From an uncultured Bacilli bacterium (GTDB lineage Bacteria > Bacillota_I > Bacilli_A > RF39 > UBA660): a stretch of 41,222 bases of DNA. Below the pieces are notes generated by a model. The model saw only the letters and a list, made by a program, of their open reading frames with translations, had not been told where the DNA came from and made no database searches. The translations under genes and the position numbers were made by a program. This document shows, one piece after another, positions 1,353-29,972 of this stretch; the first letter of the stretch is position 1; every line of letters begins with the position of its first letter. The stretch covers positions 1-41,222 of the forward strand of contig CALVJB010000009.1 in assembly GCA_944332025.1 (NCBI GenBank), read 5' to 3'.

Positions 1353-1436
1353 TAGACCTGTTCGGCAAGGTTATTGAACAAAACAGTTAAAATATGATAT
1401 CATTGATTCAAGAATATAAAAGTGGTGATGATAATG

Positions 1437-1619
1437 ATGTATATATTAATAGCACTTATAGGCATAATAGTAGGCATGCTTATAATTATAGTTTTTAATG
1501 CAATTAATGAAAATGTTAAAGAAAAACAATATTTAAAGGAATATAAGGAAATTATTGAGGAATGCTTAAAGGATAATTCACCCAAAGATAAACACGCTAA
1601 AAAAAAGGAACCCAAATAA
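1437..1619 (+). CDS. small single-pass membrane ORF inside the IS
   Basis: This ORF encodes about 60 residues. Residues 1-20 form one strongly hydrophobic helix (MYILIALIGIIVGMLIIIVF), followed by a charged helical tail and a Lys-rich end (KDKHAKKKEPK). It starts right after the left end of the IS and runs into the transposase coding region. GTG at 1422 and ATGs at 1428 and 1434 are alternative starts; 1437 has the weak site GGTGAT about 8 bases upstream. The stop at 1617-1619 follows an A-rich slippery run (1599-1606), so the ORF could also be the N-terminal part of a frameshift fusion with the transposase. I do not recognise the sequence; it may be a passenger or translational leader. Confidence 0.45.
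   Translation: MYILIALIGIIVGMLIIIVFNAINENVKEKQYLKEYKEIIEECLKDNSPKDKHAKKKEPK
1599..1607 (+). promoter_or_regulatory. candidate -1 ribosomal frameshift site
   Basis: Eight A then G read GCT AAA AAA AAG in the frame of the small membrane ORF and contain the classical heptamer A AAA AAG (1601-1607). A -1 slip enters the transposase frame exactly where its conserved N-terminal segment (KLEKWLQIEDDKTF) begins, a region with no ATG of its own until 1700. IS families commonly use such sites, but no stimulatory structure was identified, so function is inferred. Confidence 0.45.
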
Positions 1620-2445
1620 AATTAGAAAAATGGTTACAAATTGAGGATGATAAAACTTTTAAACTACATACTGGTGTAAAAAGAGAAGTATTTTTTAAAA
1701 TGTTAGAAATACTAAAAGAAAAGTACAATCAAATACATGAAAAAGGTAGTTTTAAAGGAATTGGTCCAGGATGTAAACTAGTACTTGCTTTAACCTATTG
1801 GAGAGAATACAGGGCAATGAGACAAATGGGATTAGATTATGATCTTTCTCCATCAACAGTTTGCGATAGTATTAAATGGGTAGAAAATACATTATCAGAA
1901 CATCCATTATTTTGTTTAGAAGATATAAAAAGTGAAATAGCCAAATTAGAACAAGAAGGATATGAAGTTAAATATATTATAGGTGATGTTGAAGAACAAG
2001 GTATTGAAAGACCTCAGATTAACCAAGAAGAAAACTATTCTGGGAAGAAAAAAAGACATACAACTAAAAATCAAATTATAATAGACGAAAATACAACAAG
2101 GATTATTAATGTACATAATGAAAGAGGAAAAGTTCATGATTATCAAATGCTTAAAGATAGTGATATTATAGATGATTTAAATGAACTAGGTATTGGTGGT
2201 AAATTTGATAGTGGTTATCAAGGCGTTCAAAAAGAACTTGATAATGCAATAATTCCATATAAAAAGAGTAAGTATCATGAACTTACTGAAGAAGAAAAAG
2301 AACATAACAAAGTATTATCATCAGAACGTATTAAAATAGAACTATTAAAATTTTTCGTATTATGAAAGAAACTTATAGAAATCATATGAATAGATATGAA
2401 AAAAGATTAAGAATAATTTGTTGTTTATATAATCAAAATTTATAA
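1601..2445 (+). pseudogene. IS5-family DDE transposase with C-terminal frameshift
   Basis: The open frame from 1601 gives an N-terminal helical region (LEKWLQIEDDKTF), a helix-turn-helix (DYDLSPSTVCDSIKWVE), and the catalytic core with first Asp in IIGDVEEQ, second Asp in KFDSGYQG and the Glu in SSERIKIE. Immediately after that Glu the frame is lost: the open frame ends KFFVL with a stop at 2363-2365. The true C-terminus (KIFRIMKETYRNH through CCLYNQNL) sits in the -1 frame and stops at 2443-2445. Intact relatives have a few more residues after the Glu, so a small deletion of about 13 bases is the likely cause. The first ATG, at 1700, lies inside the conserved region; translation may need the slippery site at 1599. 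This copy is probably inactive. Confidence 0.8.
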
Positions 2446-2525
2446 TTGAGCTTGCCGAACAGGTCTAATTTACAAACACGTTCTCTAACCTTTTCTATCA
2501 TCTTAACACCTCTAACAAAACTATA

Positions 2526-3540: not shown

Positions 3541-3690
3541 GAATTAAGTAAACTTAATTCGCCTTGGTCGTCACCTTCCAAGTTTCCTGCTTCATAGACT
3601 AGGTATCCCTACTTCTCCACAGGCTTAACATCCGATAGTCGCTACCGTAGTTTTCTTTTGTTTCTTTCTTTTCCTACTTTAACTCCATCA
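3541..3690 (-). ncRNA. putative omega-RNA and right end of IS200/IS605-type element
   Basis: Directly downstream of, and overlapping, the tnpB stop is a conserved-looking structured stretch on the minus strand containing GCGACTATCGGATGTTAAGC, GTGGAGAAGTAGGGATACC and GAAGCAGGAAACTTGG. It ends in a perfect 8-bp hairpin (GAATTAAG, loop TAAA, CTTAATTC) at 3541-3560. This position and layout match the omega-RNA (reRNA) that TnpB uses as a guide, which overlaps the 3' end of tnpB and ends at the element's right end. The guide segment would be the flank just beyond, starting TTTTGTTCTGTGTTAGAA on the minus strand. Exact ends are inferred. Confidence 0.65.
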
Positions 3691-4125
3691 TATACTTCTT
3701 TAATCCTTCAAACATAATATTATAACTGGCATTATAATCTCTATCATGATAACTTCCACATTTTGGACATATCCAACTTCTAACACTTAAGTCTTTTACT
3801 TTCTCATTCTTATATCCACACCTGCTACACTCCTGACTACTTGGATAATAACTATCTATTTTGATATATTTCTTTCCATATATCTTAGCTTTATATTCTA
3901 AAACTCTACAAAGATCTCCTAGACTTACATTTGTTAGTTGTTTAGATAATCTTTTTTCTTCTATCATGTCCTTTAATTTTAGACTTTCTGTTACTATGAT
4001 ATCATTTTCTATTACCAGTTTTTTAGTTATTTGATGGATGAAATGTCTTCTTGCATTCTTTAGTTTTTGATGTAGTACTGCTAGTTTCTTTTTGGTTTTA
4101 TTATAATTATTTATACATGTATAAA
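3674..4125 (-). pseudogene. tnpB: TnpB RNA-guided nuclease, C-terminal fragment
   Basis: About 150 codons of the TnpB C-terminal half remain in one open frame, extending upstream of the first ATG (3967) to near 4125, where similarity stops. Visible parts are the RuvC-II region (ENDIIVTESLKLKDM, with the catalytic Glu), the four-cysteine zinc finger (CSRCGYKN and CPKCG) and RuvC-III (HDRDYNAS, with the catalytic Asp). The N-terminal recognition lobe and RuvC-I with its Asp are missing, so the protein cannot cut DNA. No tnpA lies nearby. The adjacent omega-RNA and right-end hairpin look intact, so the loss came from the left end. Confidence 0.85.
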
Positions 4126-10638: not shown

Positions 10639-11592
10639 ATGAAAACTATAAGTGAGATGAGAAAAAGTTTCACAAAAAAAGACTTCATCGTTGATAACTT
10701 AATAAAGTCCAAAGGGTTATATTGTCTTGTTGCAAGACCTAAAGTTGGTAAGTCACTATTAGCACTACAACTTGCCAACTCTATTGCAACAGGACAACCA
10801 TTTCTAGGATTTAGAACTACTCCATCTCCTGTCTTATATATTAGCACAGAAATGGATTACACGCAAATTATGAGTCGAATTGATAAAATGCAACTACAAT
10901 TTGATGATAGTAATTTTGCTTTAATAGAACAAAGTCCTAACGAAAGAAAACTAAACCTTATGGACTTACAATTAGATTTTCAAACTTTTGCTACTGACTA
11001 CAATGGTAGATTTGTAATCATTGATATGTTTAGTGGTATTGATATGAATAATGGCTATGACTTAAATAATTATCAAGATATGGGACAATATGTAATTCCA
11101 AAGTTTAGAGAGATTTGTAAAAAATATAATTTTACTATCTTGCTTATTCATCACTTAAATAAAAACAATACTTCTCTTGGTAGTACTGCTATTGATGGCT
11201 CTGTTGATGGTAAGATAACCTTAAAGCAAGATATTAATATTAAAAATAAAATTATATTCACTTATGAAAGTAGAGATTATGAGGGATTAGATCTAGTTCT
11301 AAAAAGAAATGATAATCTAATATTTAAGTTATCAGAAGTTGAAAGTGAGGACTTAAATTACAATATATTAACCTTTCTAAATTATGCAATAAAACAAAAA
11401 GAATTTACCTTTACTGCTTCGGACATAACAAGTAAGTTGAACTTACCTATTACTCCATCTGTATTTGGTAAATTATTAAATAATAATATTGATAATTTAG
11501 AAAAAGAAGGACTTTATATAGAGCAAAAAAGAACTTCTAATGAAAGAACATATACTGCAATATATAAAGAACCTACTTATGAAAACGAATAG
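10639..11592 (+). CDS. RepA-like RecA-fold ATPase
   Basis: A 317-residue AAA/RecA-type ATPase of the RepA (RSF1010-like) and phage helicase-loader group. Walker A is VARPKVGKSLLALQLA at about residues 32-47, with Ala in place of the first Gly. Walker B is RFVIIDMFSGIDM around 130-142. Sensor-like LLIHHLNKNNT and GSTAIDGSVDGKITL follow. Residues 245-317 look like a winged-helix domain (FTASDITSKLNLPITPSVFG). Such proteins drive plasmid-like replication of mobile elements as a hexameric helicase. The gene lies between DUF3173 and the oriT region and is preceded by GAGAGGTG. Confidence 0.8.
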   Translation: MKTISEMRKSFTKKDFIVDNLIKSKGLYCLVARPKVGKSLLALQLANSIATGQPFLGFRTTPSPVLYISTEMDYTQIMSRIDKMQLQFDDSNFALIEQSPNERKLNLMDLQLDFQTFATDYNGRFVIIDMFSGIDMNNGYDLNNYQDMGQYVIPKFREICKKYNFTILLIHHLNKNNTSLGSTAIDGSVDGKITLKQDINIKNKIIFTYESRDYEGLDLVLKRNDNLIFKLSEVESEDLNYNILTFLNYAIKQKEFTFTASDITSKLNLPITPSVFGKLLNNNIDNLEKEGLYIEQKRTSNERTYTAIYKEPTYENE

Positions 11593-11918
11593 TTTTCATA
11601 AAGTTTTTGTAACTTTTTTCTAAAAAGTTAGTAAAAAATGAACGAGGTACGTTTTGTTGAAACGTGAGTTTCAATGAAAGTAGCGATAGTGAATATTTTT
11701 ACATTTTTTAAAGTTACTTTAAAAAATTATTTAAAGAATAAGTATCTTGTAGATAGTTATTCTTTAATCTTGTTTGTAGCGAATACCTTTACATAAGTTT
11801 AGGTATTCTGCGAAGAACAAGACATGGGGTTTTTAGGGAACTCCCTAAACTCACGAGTGGGCTATGCCCTAGTGAGATAGGTCATAAATGACCTTTTAAG
11901 AGAAAGGAGGAACATTTA
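11593..11918 (+). other. candidate oriT region, rich in inverted repeats
   Basis: This gene-free stretch precedes the relaxase gene, as MobV oriT regions usually do. Hairpins include TTGAAAC-GTGA-GTTTCAA (about 11657), AAAGAATAA/TTATTCTTT (11734-11765), GAATACCT/AGGTATTC (11781-11808), TTTAGGGA/TCCCTAAA, a nested CTCAC...GTGAG, and AGGTCA-TAAA-TGACCT. Two related blocks read TAGCGATAGTGAATA then TTTTTACAT (11681-11704) and TAGCGAATACCTTTACAT (11777-11794). The first resembles the pMV158 nick region (TAGTGTG, TTATACTTTACAT). The nick position itself is not proved. Confidence 0.6.
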
Positions 11919-13358
11919 TTGTATGATGGAAAACAAGTAGTACGAGTAGAAACAAAGTTCAAACAAAAAGATTTATATAACATTGGTATTGAAATGAAAG
12001 ATAGAAAAGGTACAGGTAATTATGATATTGAAAGGCGTGAGTTCAATGTAGAATATATATCTATGAGCGAAAGAAACCTGTATCAAGAAGTAAAACAAAC
12101 CTTAAAGAAAAGAAATATAGAATATCTAAATAAAGCTTCCACTAACCTATTAAATGGAATTACCTTTACAAGTGGAACAGAGTTTTTTGAAGCTCTAGGT
12201 ATGAAGTTTATAGATAGTGGTAGAACTTATAAAACAGGAAATAAAAAAGGACAAAGTGTAAAAGTTCCTTATATAAAATCTAAAGAAGATATACCACAAA
12301 CTGTTAGTTATTTCTTTGACTCTTGTATGGAGTTTCTTAAAGATTATGTTGGAGAAGAAAATATTATATTAGCTCAAATACATTATGATGAAGATACTCC
12401 TCACCTACAAGCATATTTTCTACCAATTGTAAACGAAGTAAAAAGAAAATGTTACGTCAAAGATAAAAATGGAAACGTCATTAAAGAAGAAGTTAAAAAT
12501 AAAAATGGTAATACTACACTAGTTCCTAAAATATTAAGAGATGAAAAAGGTAAAATCGTTTATGAGAAAGTTAAAGGTAACTTTTTAAATAACGACCAGT
12601 TTTGGAAACAACGAGGAGCTCAAAACTCTTATGCTAAATTACAAAACTCTTTTCATAAGTTTATTACAGAACGAGGTTTTAATTTAGATAGAGGTAATAT
12701 TGGAGCTAATGTAGAACACAAGACTAAATTAGAGTTCCAAATAGAGGAAAATAAGGCTGAATTAGAGCTTTTAAATCAAGAAAAGGAAAATACCTTAAAA
12801 GTGATAGAAAACTCTAAAAATGCCCTTATAGAGTCCAATAAAGCCATTAATAAAGATATATTAAATCCTAAAAAAACTATTGTTGGTTATAACTCTAATG
12901 ACGTTCAAAAAATCGTAGAATATTCTAAAGGTTTAGAGCAAGTTAATATCTTTCAGCAAAGTGAAATTAAGAATAAAGATTTAACTATAATGAAATTATC
13001 TAAAGAAAATACCAGTTTTAAAAACAATGAAGAAATTATTAAGCGAGATAAAATTATTACCGAGCAAAAGGCTACTATTAAAGAACAAAGTAAAGAGATT
13101 AATAAATTAAAAGGTATTGTTAATATTTTAAATAATAGTATTGATAATCTAAAAGAAAAACTTGAAGTTGAAGTTAATAAATGGAAAAAACTATTTAAAA
13201 AAATGTGTAAAGCTATTGATAAGCTACTAGATAGAGAGCCTAAAGATTATGTTGAAGATTATGAAAATCTAGCTGATGCTATTAATTATGATTACTATGA
13301 TTATGACAATAGAAAAGAGAAAGACAAAGACAAAGATGATTATGAAATTGGTTTATAG
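11919..13358 (+). CDS. MobV-family relaxase (Pre/Mob)
   Basis: A 479-residue relaxase. Translation starts at TTG (11919), 8 bases after AAAGGAGG; no better start exists. Residues 1-270 are the Mob_Pre domain with KDRKGTGNYDIERREFN near the N-terminus, a FTSGTEFFEAL segment and the metal/catalytic motif HYDEDTPHLQA at about 150-160. The family motif ends in a third His, which is Gln here, a variant that leaves two of three His ligands. Residues 270-430 are long coiled coils (ELELLNQEKENTLKVIENS and later repeats) and the end is acidic and Tyr-rich. The enzyme nicks oriT to start transfer; the candidate oriT lies directly upstream. Confidence 0.9.
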   Translation: MYDGKQVVRVETKFKQKDLYNIGIEMKDRKGTGNYDIERREFNVEYISMSERNLYQEVKQTLKKRNIEYLNKASTNLLNGITFTSGTEFFEALGMKFIDSGRTYKTGNKKGQSVKVPYIKSKEDIPQTVSYFFDSCMEFLKDYVGEENIILAQIHYDEDTPHLQAYFLPIVNEVKRKCYVKDKNGNVIKEEVKNKNGNTTLVPKILRDEKGKIVYEKVKGNFLNNDQFWKQRGAQNSYAKLQNSFHKFITERGFNLDRGNIGANVEHKTKLEFQIEENKAELELLNQEKENTLKVIENSKNALIESNKAINKDILNPKKTIVGYNSNDVQKIVEYSKGLEQVNIFQQSEIKNKDLTIMKLSKENTSFKNNEEIIKRDKIITEQKATIKEQSKEINKLKGIVNILNNSIDNLKEKLEVEVNKWKKLFKKMCKAIDKLLDREPKDYVEDYENLADAINYDYYDYDNRKEKDKDKDDYEIGL

Positions 13359-13391
13359 AAATATTAAAATAAAAAGATTTTAAGAAAGGAC

Positions 13392-14603
13392 GTGATTATT
13401 ATAGCTGTATTACAAGTAAAGCCTAAAGAACAAACTAAAGATGGTAGAAAATGGATTTTTCAAGTTTATTATAAAGGATTAGATGGACTAAATAAAAAGT
13501 ATCGTTCAAGAAAATATATGACGAAGAAAGAAGCACAAGAAGCTGAAAGGCAGTTCCTTTTATCGCTCGATCAGAATATAAATCATAAAGATATGACTTT
13601 TAAAGATTTATATTTATCTTTTTATGATTATCAAAGTGATAAAGTTAGAGAAAGTACAATAAAAACTTATAGAGATAGAGTTAAGTATTTACAGTATTTC
13701 GATAATATAAAATTAAAGGATTTTAATATTAATCATTTTGAATTATGGAAGAAAGAAATTAATAAATTACCTCTAGCTACTTCTTATAAAAATGATTTAT
13801 TTAAGTTTATAAAAGCAATATTAAATTATGGTAGCAAATGGTATGATTTTAATTTTACTCCAATATATAATAAAATGACTAACTTTACTAATCCTAATGA
13901 ATTGAAAAAAGAAATGCTATTTTTTACTATTGATGAGTTTAATCAATTTATATCAGTTGAAGATGATATAATGTTTAAGCCCCTATTTGAAACTCTTTAT
14001 TATATGGGACTTCGTAAAGGAGAATTAAGAGGCTTACAATGGAAAGATATAGATTTTAAAAATAAGATAATGAGAATATATAAACAAATACCATCAATTT
14101 ATAGTATGGATAACTACAAATTAAGTCCATTAAAAACACAAAATAGTAATCGTGACTTACCTATCAATGATTTACTACTAGCTGATTTAAAAAGGTTATA
14201 CGATTATAAAAAAGAGTTTAAAAACTTTTCTCAAGAGTGGTTTGTTTTTGGTAATGATTTACCTCTTACAAAAGACTCTATTAGAAGTAGAAAAAATAGA
14301 AATTGTAAATTAGCACAGGTAAAGCAAATAAGAATACACGACTTTAGACACTCCTGTGCTTCTTTCTTAATAAATTATGGTGCTAGTATTACTCTAGTAG
14401 CCAAGTATTTAGGTCATACTAAAATTGATGAAACACTAAATACCTACTCTCACATGTATCAAAATAAACTTGAAGATATAGTTAAGCTCATAAATAAAAA
14501 CAATAGTATTTTACTAGCTGAAAGAGAAAGAGAAAAAGAAAAAAATACTATTGATAATAATAATATAACTAATGAAAAAAATGATATAGAAATATGTCTA
14601 TAA
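13392..14603 (+). CDS. int: tyrosine recombinase (integrase)
   Basis: A phage-type integrase of about 400 residues. It has an N-terminal AP2-like arm-binding region (WIFQVYYKGLDGLNKKYRSR), a SAM-like core-binding domain (about 60-165) and the catalytic domain with Arg in GLRKGELRGLQW, HDFRHSCASF, LGHTKIDETL and the Tyr nucleophile in NTYSHMY. The start is unclear: GTG at 13392 is almost on top of AAAGGA, while relatives start at the AVLQV segment, here preceded by ATA (13401). It lies beside attR and should carry out integration and excision at the 27-bp repeats. It is co-oriented with the relaxase, 33 bases downstream, and followed by a terminator. Confidence 0.9.
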   Translation: MIIIAVLQVKPKEQTKDGRKWIFQVYYKGLDGLNKKYRSRKYMTKKEAQEAERQFLLSLDQNINHKDMTFKDLYLSFYDYQSDKVRESTIKTYRDRVKYLQYFDNIKLKDFNINHFELWKKEINKLPLATSYKNDLFKFIKAILNYGSKWYDFNFTPIYNKMTNFTNPNELKKEMLFFTIDEFNQFISVEDDIMFKPLFETLYYMGLRKGELRGLQWKDIDFKNKIMRIYKQIPSIYSMDNYKLSPLKTQNSNRDLPINDLLLADLKRLYDYKKEFKNFSQEWFVFGNDLPLTKDSIRSRKNRNCKLAQVKQIRIHDFRHSCASFLINYGASITLVAKYLGHTKIDETLNTYSHMYQNKLEDIVKLINKNNSILLAEREREKEKNTIDNNNITNEKNDIEICL

Positions 14604-18325: not shown

Positions 18326-19075
18326 ATGAATAGAGAAGATTTTAATGATAAATGTAAAGATTGCAATGATTGTTGTTTATGTGAGGTTGTTAGATGTCTA
18401 GTTAATGACTGCACTGGTCCTACTGGTCCATGTGGTTGTACAGGACCTACTGGTCCAAAGGGTGCTACAGGTCCAACAGGTGCTACCGGAATGCAAGGCC
18501 CTATAGGTCCAACAGGTGCTACCGGAATGCAAGGCCCTATAGGTCCAACTGGGGCAACCGGTGCTACAGGAGCTACTGGTATGCAAGGTCCAACTGGTCC
18601 TACTGGGGCAACCGGTGCTACAGGTCCCGCAGGTGGATCATTTAATGCTGCCGCTATGATTCATGATGAAACTAATGCTGTAGTACCAATTAATGAAGCA
18701 ATTAAACCTAGTATAACCAATCTTTCTAATGGTATTACTTATGATCCTACAACTGGTGAATTCATGGTGCCACAAACTGGACAATATTTAATCAATTGGT
18801 GGTTCAATGTTAGAAGTAAAAATCAAAACGAAGAATGTAATCCAATCGCTCTAGGTATTGAATTACATCAAACTACACCAGGATTTAACCTTATCGCTCA
18901 CTCTTCCACACATAATCGCCTTAGTGGTTGTGATACTGGAACAATTAGTGGTAATGCCCTATTCGCTGCTAATGCTAATGATAAATTTAGATTTGTTAAT
19001 ACTTCTAACACAGACTTCCAATTAGTACCAAACGATCGTTATTCTGCCTCATTCTCGGTTACACAAATCAACTAA
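18326..19075 (+). CDS. collagen-like protein with C1q/TNF-type C-terminal domain (BclA-like)
   Basis: A 249-residue protein. Residues 1-30 are Cys-rich ([15 protein letters not shown]) without a signal peptide. Residues 30-105 are Gly-X-Y triplets with many Pro-Thr ([19 protein letters not shown] repeated), including near-identical 36-base DNA repeats. Residues 106-249 form a beta-rich C1q/TNF-like trimer domain ([51 protein letters not shown]). This plan matches BclA-type exosporium filaments, which lack a classic signal peptide and are loaded onto spores from the mother cell. With SspI in this window it supports sporulation; a phage or surface fibre is the alternative. GAAAGGAG precedes the start. 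Confidence 0.85.
18450..18630 (+). repeat. collagen-coding tandem repeats
   Basis: Repeats of 9 bases (Gly-X-Y codons) and a longer unit of about 36 bases containing GGTGCTACCGGAATGCAAGG occur at least twice in identical form. They can expand or contract by slippage. The open frames on both strands here are by-products of the repeat. Confidence 0.8.
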
Positions 19076-26183: not shown

Positions 26184-26414
26184 TTAGCTACAATTTTCGT
26201 AAACATTAACTAAATCATCACCATAATATTTAGAAATATAAGTTGCTCTTAATATCTTAGAGTCTACTGGTTTAAACAAAACTACTTCTCCTATTTTATC
26301 ATCAAAATCTTCTAAAAAATCATAACTAAAATATAAATATAACTTATCATCACTTCCTAAAATATAGCCACTACTACTATTTATTTTTTGATAGATCTTC
26401 CCTACTAATTCCAT
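26184..26414 (-). CDS. hypothetical small beta-rich protein
   Basis: A 76-residue protein (LVGKIYQKINSSSGYILGSD then YLYFSYDFLEDFDDK, EVVLFKPVDSKILRATYIS) with the strand pattern of a small barrel, perhaps OB- or cold-shock-like, without recognisable nucleic-acid motifs. It starts inside the end of the upstream long gene, overlapping by 38 bases, so they are translationally linked. Its last codons (ENCS, stop) lie within the palindrome that borders toxin module 3, suggesting the original 3' end was replaced when the module arrived. Confidence 0.5.
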   Translation of the reverse strand: MELVGKIYQKINSSSGYILGSDDKLYLYFSYDFLEDFDDKIGEVVLFKPVDSKILRATYISKYYGDDLVNVYENCS

Positions 26415-28189
26415 ATTCTTCTTCCTCCTCTTTTTCCATGTTTTCTATTAATAAAGGAGCTTGTGATAAATGTTTAATATAGTCTTTTTTAGCTCTTTCA
26501 TCAAATGGTAATAAATTTGCTAATATATTATATTGATCGTCTATTGCCACATACCAATCTTTATTTCCTACTATATATTTAAAGGTATTAACATCAATAA
26601 GTTTAAAATTTCTTTTTTCTTTATTTTTTCTACTAGTAGGAATATTTTTATAATCAATAGCAGAATAAGCGATAGAATTAACTATTAATGATAATCTTTC
26701 TTTATCATATTCTTTATCAATATTAAATTCATAATCTTCTTTTCTTGCCTGATAAAACCTATCTTTGGCTACATAATATTTATTTTCCCTATAATCATCA
26801 CTTCTAGAAATAATATAGTTTTCTTTATCTTTCTTATTATAATCAGTATAACAAGGATAATCTATTGGTATATATGTTTCAAGTTGATATTTTGAATAAT
26901 CTTTTTCTAAAAAATAATCTTCTAAATGTAAATTAGTAATTGTTGCAACTTCTATTTTCTCATCATCAATACTTTCTTTAGAACTTACCCTAATAATTTC
27001 ATCCATTGCCTTAGTAAAAGCTCTAAAAAAATCATCTTTTTCATCCTCTTCTAATTTAGGATCTACTCCATTACAATGAATACCATTACCACTACGAATT
27101 ATTGGGCATATATAAGTATGGTTAGTCAACTTATTAGTAAAATACATAATAACCGCTTGATTACTTGTAAGACAATATCGGAAAAAATCTTCTCCTTTTC
27201 CAGAAATACGGAAACAGTTTTTCGCATCAACTCCTGCTGCTAATAAATATTCTGCATCAAAAGGAGCGACTCTATAAGAAAAACTATCACTTTCTCCTTC
27301 TATAGTAGGTATTGAAGAATAAACTTTTCTTTTTCTTTCAACATGCAACTTACATATTTCTTTTAAAATTTCTTCTTCACTCTTACCGGTACAATACTCT
27401 TTCGAAGAAATTATATTAGCAATTGTTGATAAAAATATATCTTGAAGATTAGGTTTAAGCGAAAAAAAGCTTGTCTTAACAATATCAATAACATCAAGTA
27501 ATGAATTTAATGATAGTTTATTTTTCTTAGCAATAGATTCTATCACATCATATTGATTTATTAACTTACCTAGTAAATTATTTAGTCCTAACGCTTCCTT
27601 ATTTATAATTAAGCGAAGAAGACAATCATTATTATCTTTAAGGTTACCTAATAAGAACTCTCTTAATCTTACAAGTATATCTTGATCATAATTATTTAAT
27701 AAATTAACAAGAGAAACATCTTTGAATAGTTCTTTTAAATCTTTTACTGATAACTTTCTATCAGTCTTAAAAGATAAACGATTTCTTATATCTTTAGTAT
27801 AATCTTCTTTCGCTTTATTCTCTCTTTCATTAATTAATTCTAATAGTTTTCCTTTTAAAGCATCATGTAAATCTTTATTGTCTTTATATATAGATACTAT
27901 CTTTAAAAACTCATCTCTTAAACATAAAATTTTCTCTTCATCTACGTCATATAAAAGCTTAGAGAAAAAGTCATAATTATTATTATTTAAGGCATCTATC
28001 ACTTCATTTTCCATTCCATAATGATAAAAACGTTCTTGATGTTTAGTACGATATTCTCTTCTATGATCTTTAAAATTAAAATCTATAATTCTATTAACAG
28101 CACTAGGAGTAATATTAGTAAATTTATCAAGAATAATACTCCTAGCATTATCATAACCAAAAATATAATAGAGTTGTTCGGAAATTAAA

Positions 28190-29026
28190 TTAAGCAATAT
28201 AAAAGTTATACAATGCACAAATCAAAACAGCAAATGGTGCAAAAAAATTTAAATTATTTCTAAATTTAGTACTAAGTATCTTAAACCTTTTAATCCAACC
28301 ATTAGTATGTTCAATAAATATTCTAGTCGAGCCAATATCCTTATTATAGTTTATATCATCTTCAGTAAGAGGATGATTTTTACTTTTCTTTTTAGGAATT
28401 TTACTATTATTGTGAATCTTATTTATTCCAACATATCCTAAATCTGCTGTGTAAGTAACATTTTCGGGAGTTCCTTCAAATGTCCTCTTAAAAAGGTGAA
28501 AATCATGCTCTGCACCTAATCCAATCTGTATTTCATAAATAAAGCCTGTATCTGTTCCTTTAATAATTTGAATTTTCATTGTATGATATTTCTTTTTACC
28601 AGAATATTTACTTTTTTGATTGTATTTTGGTCTTTGAATTCTGATTTCTGTAACATCTAGTAATCTGTTTTCAGAATTTTCATTTTTTGTGCATTTAGAA
28701 CCCATAAGAGTAAAATTTCTATCTTTTAAAAGTGTATTTAATACAAAATGTATGTATTCACATATAACGCTTTTAGATACGTCCCATTCAAAAGCATAAT
28801 CTTCCATTGCATTATATTGTTTTATGTATAAAAGAAATATTATAACCATTTCTCTAGCACCATATTTAGGTGTTCTTCCTCTTTTATTTTTATGCTTTTT
28901 ATTTAATTCTTTTTGAATTGTTCTTATCATTGCATAAAATATTACTCTTCCAACTCCTAATAATCGCACAAACTTTGTATAATTTAACTTCTTTAATCTT
29001 TCTTCTGAATACTGTTCTTTTCCCAT
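28190..29026 (-). CDS. IS5-family DDE transposase
   Basis: A 278-residue transposase with an N-terminal helix-turn-helix region (YAFEWDVSKSVICEYIHFVL) and an RNase H-like catalytic core. The first Asp is in LLDVTEIRIQRP, the second in YTADLGYVGINKIH and the Glu in RIFIEHTNGWIKRFK, with SGKKKYHTMKIQ between, as in DDE_Tnp_4 proteins. All three acidic residues are present and the frame is whole, so it should be active. The start has GGAATAAAAATG spacing with a weak ribosome site, and the leader holds interleaved inverted repeats (29043-29141). Confidence 0.93.
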   Translation of the reverse strand: MGKEQYSEERLKKLNYTKFVRLLGVGRVIFYAMIRTIQKELNKKHKNKRGRTPKYGAREMVIIFLLYIKQYNAMEDYAFEWDVSKSVICEYIHFVLNTLLKDRNFTLMGSKCTKNENSENRLLDVTEIRIQRPKYNQKSKYSGKKKYHTMKIQIIKGTDTGFIYEIQIGLGAEHDFHLFKRTFEGTPENVTYTADLGYVGINKIHNNSKIPKKKSKNHPLTEDDINYNKDIGSTRIFIEHTNGWIKRFKILSTKFRNNLNFFAPFAVLICALYNFYIA

Positions 29027-29141: not shown

Positions 29142-29972
29142 CTTAAATTATACCACATTTTTAATTTCCGAACAACTCTAATAAAGTTTTAGACTTACTT
29201 CTAATAAATCTTCTTCACTTGCATCCCCTTTTTCTTTTAATAAAGCTATTAACTTATTAACTTTTCCTTCTTTTACATCTAATATTTCTTGATATGGCAA
29301 AACAACTCCATCTTTCAAAGTAATTTCAGGAAAGTCTTCTAAAACATTTATTAATAAGCCAAATTTAGTATAAAGTATTAATTCTTTTTCATTATCTATT
29401 TTTAAAACACCTAAGGGATTTAATATATTCATTTTTACTTTTTGAAAAAAGGATGATGAAATATCTTTATTAATAGAAGAAACACCAATTATATTTTCTA
29501 ACTCTTCAGGTATATTCTCTTTGAAAAAAAGATGATATAGCTTTGTTAAATTGATATTTTCTAACATTTTTTTAAACTGTTCATAATCAATAGAATTAAT
29601 ATAATCAATGAATTGTTCTTTATAATCTAAAATATAATCACTTTCAAAAATATATTTTAATAATAGAAAATTTTCTTCACCTATAATATTAAGAATATTT
29701 CTTTTTTTCCTATTTTTAGGAGAAGTTAATACTTTATAAAATATTTTTTTATTATTAAGTAATTCCCTAACTTCTTCCATATTTTGAACTTGTAAGAATA
29801 AAGAAGAAAATATAACTTCATTTAATTCATCTAAATATGGATTTTTAAGTAATTTAGTTTTTTCATCTAAAGTCATTGAATTAAACTTTCTTATAAAAGT
29901 TGGTAATGTCATATTAGATAACTCTGTAATTATAGTTCTATCATCCATTAATATCTCACCTCATAACTTTTA

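Follow-up and report, generated by a model that had tools for sequence, protein, structure and literature searches.

We find that, in a lineage of IS5-family insertion sequences (IS) from uncultured Bacilli, the transposase frame is preceded by a small ORF for a predicted single-span membrane peptide, and that the two frames abut at a run of adenines that every copy has kept while the phase between the frames has drifted. We propose that slippage on this run fuses the small membrane peptide to the transposase, a route that would limit expression of the enzyme and perhaps tether it. We put the chance that this reading is right at slightly below even.

Anatomy and distribution of the element

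The copy that we analyzed lies in a 41,222-nt stretch of DNA from an uncultured Bacilli bacterium (the whole of this stretch is called the window below), and its features are collected in Table 1. Its transposase scored 55.5 bits against DDE_Tnp_4 (cut-off, 24.8) and 32.6 bits against HTH_Tnp_4 (cut-off, 27), and the transposase of an intact copy scored 133.3 bits against NCBIfam NF033581 (transpos_IS5_4), just below the cut-off of 140. Residues D129, D203, and E247, which we take to be the catalytic residues, were invariant in our transposase comparison. Inverted repeats at the ends and a duplicated target, both short as is typical of the IS5 family, are also present. These profile matches, together with the 15-bp ends and the TA flanks, bear out the preliminary description, which had called the element IS5-type, and on sequence grounds we class its transposase as an IS5-type DDE enzyme; a TA target would presumably point to the IS427 subgroup. 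A Foldseek search with the transposase model (mean pLDDT, 68, of which we relied only on the well-scored N-terminal helices) returned nothing at an E value of 1e-3 or better, the best match being Mos1 at 1.6e-3 with low TM-scores, and a sequence search of the PDB gave two weak matches only (E value, 0.076).

Table 1. Features of the IS5-family element, in window coordinates
Feature	Position	Strand	Remarks
IS5-family element	1355..2465	+	1111 bp in the window, flanked by TA on each side
Left terminal inverted repeat, GACCTGTTCGGCAAG	1355..1369	+	15 bp; also at contig ends of G416 (another genus)
Promoter-like site, TTGAAC-18-TATCAT	1374..1403	+	upstream of the small ORF; consensus match only
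Small ORF	1434..1619	+	61 aa; one transmembrane helix and a charged helical tail, from ORF reading, hydropathy, conservation, and model
Predicted transmembrane segment	1440..1496	+	residues 3-21 of the small ORF; hydropathy, helix in model
TAA in the transposase frame	1598..1600	+	abuts the heptamer; frame open only from the A run onward
Candidate slippage run, A8G	1599..1607	+	heptamer A_AAA_AAG in phase at 1601-1607
Transposase frame	1601..2365	+	first ATG/GTG/TTG at 1700; 3' end frameshifted in window copy
ATA at the small-ORF stop	1616..1618	+	candidate non-AUG start, near the ATG position of related IS5 transposases
First in-frame ATG of the transposase	1700..1702	+	a start here would leave out two predicted helices and part of a further one
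13-nt deletion site in the window copy	2333..2343	+	flanked by copies of a 9-nt direct repeat
Right terminal inverted repeat	2451..2465	-	15 bp, perfect match with the left end

The same element is present in six other genomes, at L005 (=L021), L006 (=L023), L007 (=L024), L022 (=L107), L025, and L008 (=L027). We equated the paired loci because their contigs have the same length or, for L022 and L107, from contig number and coordinates. The window copy and those at L005, L006, L007, and L022 belong to one genus, and L008 belongs to another genus of the same family; the host of L025, where the element is cut by the contig end, is 'Candidatus Ventrenecus avicola'. The close copies are thus the five from a single genus (window included) plus L025, and L008, whose transposase is 62-65% identical to the others and whose small ORF is still recognizable, is the sole divergent lineage. 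The element measures 1123-1124 bp in L005, L006, L007, and L022 and 1103 bp in L008. Across genome searches whose sets overlap and whose limits differ, matches came from 9 of 288, 5 of 386, 1 of 395, and 1 of 11 genomes (with 5, 2, 1, and 1 clade members, respectively) and, further, from 0 of 7, 11 of 35, and 6 of 371 (with 5 clade members in each of the last two).

At L008, excising the IS along with one TA gives a 734-aa ORF across the flanks, which, given the TA flanks of the other copies, indicates that the element is mobile and targets TA; the sole copy without TA at its left flank is L006, whose end is altered. A third genus is represented by G416, which carries ten element ends (L092 to L103 without L093 and L095) in two left-end variants, all at contig edges and all preceded by TA, a pattern that suggests recent multiplication of the element in that genome. 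No transposase match was found in the G416 assembly, nor was a body found for one of the two left-end variants. A third leader variant of G416, sought in 107 genomes, was recovered from G416 itself and elsewhere gave only short AT-rich matches (41 genomes). Recent mobility is likewise suggested by copies that are nearly identical across five genomes of a single genus and L025, taken with the ten ends in G416.

A second copy of the element was not found in the window's own genome, which does carry a 50-bp solo left end that includes the promoter-like part (L095, C26:3809-3858) and a 71% stretch within another IS; a pattern search for a second element end on C26 beside L095 found none. Searching plasmid DNA with the element gave no match, and transposase relatives in phages (3 records) and plasmids (229 records) were all below 60% identity. 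Neither the L008 transposase nor the conserved 34-nt leader had a match in viral contigs. The terminal-repeat pattern hit at least 120 stretches of viral contigs, the 80 listed having one match each, and we read these as chance.

The window copy itself is probably inactive because it lacks, near 2333-2343, 13 nt that are present in L005, L006, L007, L008, and L022 (L025 stops upstream of this point and is uninformative), so that its transposase goes out of frame just past the presumed catalytic Glu. It also looks like a mosaic of two lineages: relative to L005, its left part (1355-1620) is strongly diverged and the remainder (1621-2465) is nearly identical, with a synonymous divergence of 0.34 in the small-ORF part and 0.018 in the transposase part. 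The small ORF has remained intact through this apparent recombination.

Elsewhere in the window, a second IS5-type element (28190-29026; 36% identity; ends, GAGTTGTTCGGAAATTAAA) has a normal ATG start and sits between 26377-28218 and 29178-29948; in G076 (L013), what is apparently the same host gene is broken by a different IS5 element. Judged from translations, ATPase-like, relaxase-like, and tyrosine-integrase-like ORFs stand in a row at 10639-14603, perhaps as an integrated mobilizable element, and a fragment at 3674-3967 resembles the terminal zinc ribbon of TnpB-type proteins. A protein with GPTGPTGAT collagen-like repeats is encoded at 18326-19075.

The small membrane ORF

The small ORF, whose stop is the TAA at 1617-1619, could start at GTG 1422 or ATG 1434, of which the latter is the more likely from conservation. 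The promoter-like site ends 30 nt upstream of ATG 1434, which is weak evidence of promoter use since five such sites occur in the region where 3.0 are expected. The best 19-residue Kyte-Doolittle mean is 3.17, and a peptide model based on four sequences consists of a single long helix whose first 20 residues are well scored. The tail holds 11 K+R and 9 D+E in both lineages and is neutral beside the helix, where its first 15 residues contain 3 K+R and 3 D+E (4 of each in L008). Charge therefore does not fix the orientation in the membrane, a point that counts against the fusion reading.

Its substitutions mark the small ORF as a genuine gene under purifying selection. Over the 55 codons upstream of the run in the window copy, L005, L006, and L007, dN/dS ranged from 0.11 to 0.23 in five of six pairs; the sixth pair, which has three differences, gave 0.47. 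These values are comparable to those of the transposase (0.16-0.32). The other two frames of the same DNA, compared in four pairs each, gave dN/dS above 1 in six of eight cases, 0.49 in one, and an undefined value in one that lacked synonymous changes. Consistent with this, differences at codon positions 1, 2, and 3 numbered 3, 3, and 12 between the window copy and L005; 3, 2, and 11 between the window copy and L006; and 2, 1, and 5 between L005 and L006.

Conservation extends to the divergent lineage. The L008 peptide shares 36% identity with that of the window and 28% with that of L021, and its alignment beat all 5000 block-preserving shuffles both against the window and against L005; the tail alone is weaker, with 65 and 98 of 5000 shuffles, respectively, reaching its score. 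No Pfam or NCBIfam family scored above its cut-off with the small ORF, the best PHROG match had an E value of 0.023, and the plasmids and phages searched held no match. In its own genome, the small ORF had, apart from itself, four weak matches; the strongest (E value, 1.7e-4) falls in a 172-aa ORF that has several hydrophobic stretches, and we read it as a chance hydrophobic match. The upstream ORF of two-ORF IS generally provides DNA binding. This one has no recognizable DNA-binding domain of the classical OrfA kind and provides a single predicted membrane helix in its place.

The adenine run and the route to the transposase

The preliminary description rightly held that the transposase N terminus has no start codon in its frame and that a small membrane ORF upstream ends at an A_AAA_AAG heptamer, which lies in phase (Table 1). 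In five of the seven copies, no in-frame ATG, GTG, or TTG precedes the conserved domain. The junction run is present in all seven, as A8 in five, A7 in L007, and A9 in L008, and the small ORF is present in all six copies outside the window, in shortened form in L025; the arrangement that would have spoken against a joint unit, a normal ATG without an upstream ORF, was thus found in none of them.

The phased heptamer is more than a chance feature. Of the 32 window ORFs that reach 120 aa, 30 were scanned; A_AAA_AAR stands in phase at 8 of their 10,196 codons and A_AAA_AAG at one, so that the chance of an in-phase A_AAA_AAR within the 19-nt overlap is about 0.4%. Runs of A8 or longer do occur in other contexts, three times in the 30,768 nt of these ORFs. 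In a wider, uncurated sample of 94 mechanically called ORFs with the same minimum of 120 aa, drawn from the window and from 27 loci and including some from other genera, KKK was encoded with a run of A8 or longer in 1 of 31 cases, whereas codon use (79% AAA) predicts 63%. Sampled host ORFs thus largely avoid the run that the element keeps.

The phase is less constant than the run. Relative to the small ORF, the transposase lies at -1, the shift proposed in the preliminary description, in the window copy, L005, L006, and L022, and at +1 in L007 (from A7) and L008 (+1/-2, from A9); in L025, a 1-nt insertion terminates the small ORF upstream of the run. The single direction shared by IS that use -1 ribosomal frameshifting is therefore absent (-1 in four copies, +1 in two, broken in one), and -1 shifting by the ribosome cannot work for L007 or L008 since both need +1. 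A run of A7-A9 at an ORF junction with variable direction is the trait of transcriptional slippage, and the available text of one report gives a non-conserved slip direction as a sign of transcriptional realignment (PMC3711429). A run that is kept while its phase drifts thus points to transcriptional slippage or translational coupling rather than strict -1 shifting, and as a way to the fusion, the sequence pattern favors slippage by RNA polymerase over ribosomal -1 shifting.

Under the fusion reading, transcription would start from a promoter close to the left end, the single-span membrane peptide would be encoded first, and most ribosomes would make that peptide only. Slippage on A7-A9, most likely by RNA polymerase gaining or losing one A, would yield a minority of fusion chains, with -1 ribosomal shifting a possible contributor at the A8 copies, and its rarity would hold transposase levels low, as other two-ORF IS do. 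With the transposase part on the cytoplasmic side, the anchor would hold the nascent enzyme close to the membrane and to the gene that encodes it and so favor action in cis. The further proposition, that the active transposase is anchored in the membrane by a signal-anchor helix and that its insertion during translation keeps enzyme, mRNA, and donor DNA together there, enforcing action in cis and limiting copy number, we regard as doubtful but conceivable. In literature searched by phrase, title, and abstract start, mostly outside subscription journals, we found no precedent for a membrane helix as the upstream part of a transposase.

Several observations count against the fusion. The NF033581 match begins only at transposase residue 19, so the segment adjoining the run is possibly dispensable, and L008 is the sole divergent lineage beside the close copies. 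The small ORF of L025 stops upstream of the run, and L007 has no more than A7 from which to reach +1 and carries its own upstream in-frame ATG; L007 and L025 may be damaged copies or assembly errors. L008 has no need of a fusion, as an in-frame ATG stands at the start of its domain, about 20 nt past the small-ORF stop.

These ATGs bear on the chief alternative, in which the small ORF is a coupled leader, its helix being a separate protein or a brake, and ribosomes re-initiate at ATA 1616 (ATT in L008) or at the L008 ATG without any fusion. In both lineages, the small-ORF stop falls within a few nucleotides of the usual transposase start, and a Geminocystis relative begins M-KLERIKKL where the window reads I-KLEKWLQI. 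L008 not only has a usable ATG, but its -1 frame past the A9 run ends in TAATG, overlapping that in-frame transposase ATG (L008:1490-1530). AUA and AUU start codons are rare, which weighs against this reading; there is, however, a report of non-AUG initiation in IS911, which Polard is said to have found in 1991 to initiate at AUU. By eye, we saw no ribosome-binding site. Moreover, coupling leaves unexplained why all copies keep a run that sampled host ORFs avoid, and in the transposase model, the residues straight after the run form a well-scored helix (block pLDDT, 90). On balance, we find coupling rather unlikely but a serious rival. The preliminary description had left the choice between a fusion and a translational regulator, and the ATGs of L007 and L008 weigh in here; each option receives partial support, and both still stand.

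A fusion made instead by a programmed -1 ribosomal frameshift at A_AAA_AAG, with the A7 and A9 copies dead or using another way, we consider improbable. Frameshifting by -1 is known from IS1, IS3, and some IS5 elements, and the heptamer is perfect and in phase in four copies, but the most divergent copy, L008, needs +1/-2. No stimulatory RNA structure stood out on either side of the run (downstream z-scores, 0.29 in the window and -0.68 in L008), although such a structure is not obligatory for programmed -1 frameshifting. The host carries tRNA-Lys with both TTT and CTT anticodons (30 of 32 tRNA places retrieved), and the part of the literature available to us ties the high shiftiness of A_AAA_AAG to bacteria with a single tRNA-Lys (PMC3196728), so the heptamer would be less shifty here. 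The same source, in its available part, predicts -1 frameshifts in the IS5-family elements ISCaa3 and ISCaa9.

It is very improbable that the true product is a truncated transposase from ATG 1700, with the upstream part of the frame untranslated: the HTH_Tnp_4 and DDE_Tnp_4 matches do fall within that ORF, but a start there takes away helices 3-13 and 17-24 of the model as well as part of 28-46, and the lost segment is conserved with L008 and in distant relatives. We give equally little credence to the small ORF being a passenger gene unrelated to translation of a silent or nearly silent transposase, since the abutment at the run is conserved and the near-identical copies and G416 ends suggest recent mobility, even though a membrane passenger gene would look alike and the window copy is damaged.

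Should the fusion prove real, it would be a new way of keeping a transposase scarce and local and would offer a direct handle on how transposases reach cis preference. A junction with a kept run and a drifting phase also makes a clean test of transcriptional versus ribosomal recoding in AT-rich uncultured Bacilli.

Comparison with known systems

To place the small ORF among IS5 elements, we compared the regions upstream of the transposase at 21 loci other than the window, namely, seven clade entries (L022/L107 counted twice) and 14 distant loci at 30-39% identity. The distant relatives differ from the window element in both respects: an in-frame ATG precedes the domain in 12 of 14 (the exceptions being L113, with TTG only, and L114, with none), and a comparable upstream membrane ORF occurs in 0 of the 13 that have enough upstream sequence. 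L104, with only 134 nt upstream, says nothing on this point, and the 13 represent fewer independent cases because some are near copies (L013/L109; L018/L110/L111/L112; L014/L113/L115). The nearest candidate is a 33-codon ORF starting with TTG in L109 (hydropathy, 1.67), which was not reported in its near copy L013. Eight N-terminal pieces from Psychrobacter relatives (L026, L068, L071-L075, and L077), of which L026 and L071 entered the 21-locus comparison, begin at a normal ATG. From these upstream regions, the membrane small ORF looks specific to this IS lineage. In other respects, the element resembles its IS5 relatives on plasmids, ISMae4 (38.1% identity to a copy) and IS702 (34.8%), sharing a DDE_Tnp_4/HTH_Tnp_4 transposase, 15-bp ends, and a length of about 1.1 kb.

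Changes of frame within transposase genes are known in the IS1, IS3, IS5, and IS630 families, according to the available portion of one account (PMC5009743). Among IS5-type elements, ISCaa3 and ISCaa9 are alike in having a transposase spread over several ORFs with a predicted -1 frameshift, at AAAAAAG in ISCaa9 and without a predicted stem-loop in ISCaa3; unlike the window element, their joined ORFs give a transposase of ordinary length (275 and 253 aa), and the accessible part of the report mentions no membrane ORF (PMC3196728). The IS1447 subgroup of IS3 is alike in comprising two-ORF IS of Firmicutes with an A7-A9 run and two-way transcriptional slippage. IS1447 itself slips both ways by one A on A9, with A7 sufficient, and one direction gives the full transposase; it differs in belonging to another transposase family, and a membrane OrfA is not mentioned in the text available (PMC6211511). 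IS911, of the IS3 family, shares frameshift expression and a reported non-AUG (AUU) start, and in the available part of the account that covers it, its cis preference is tied to frameshift pausing (PMC5009743).
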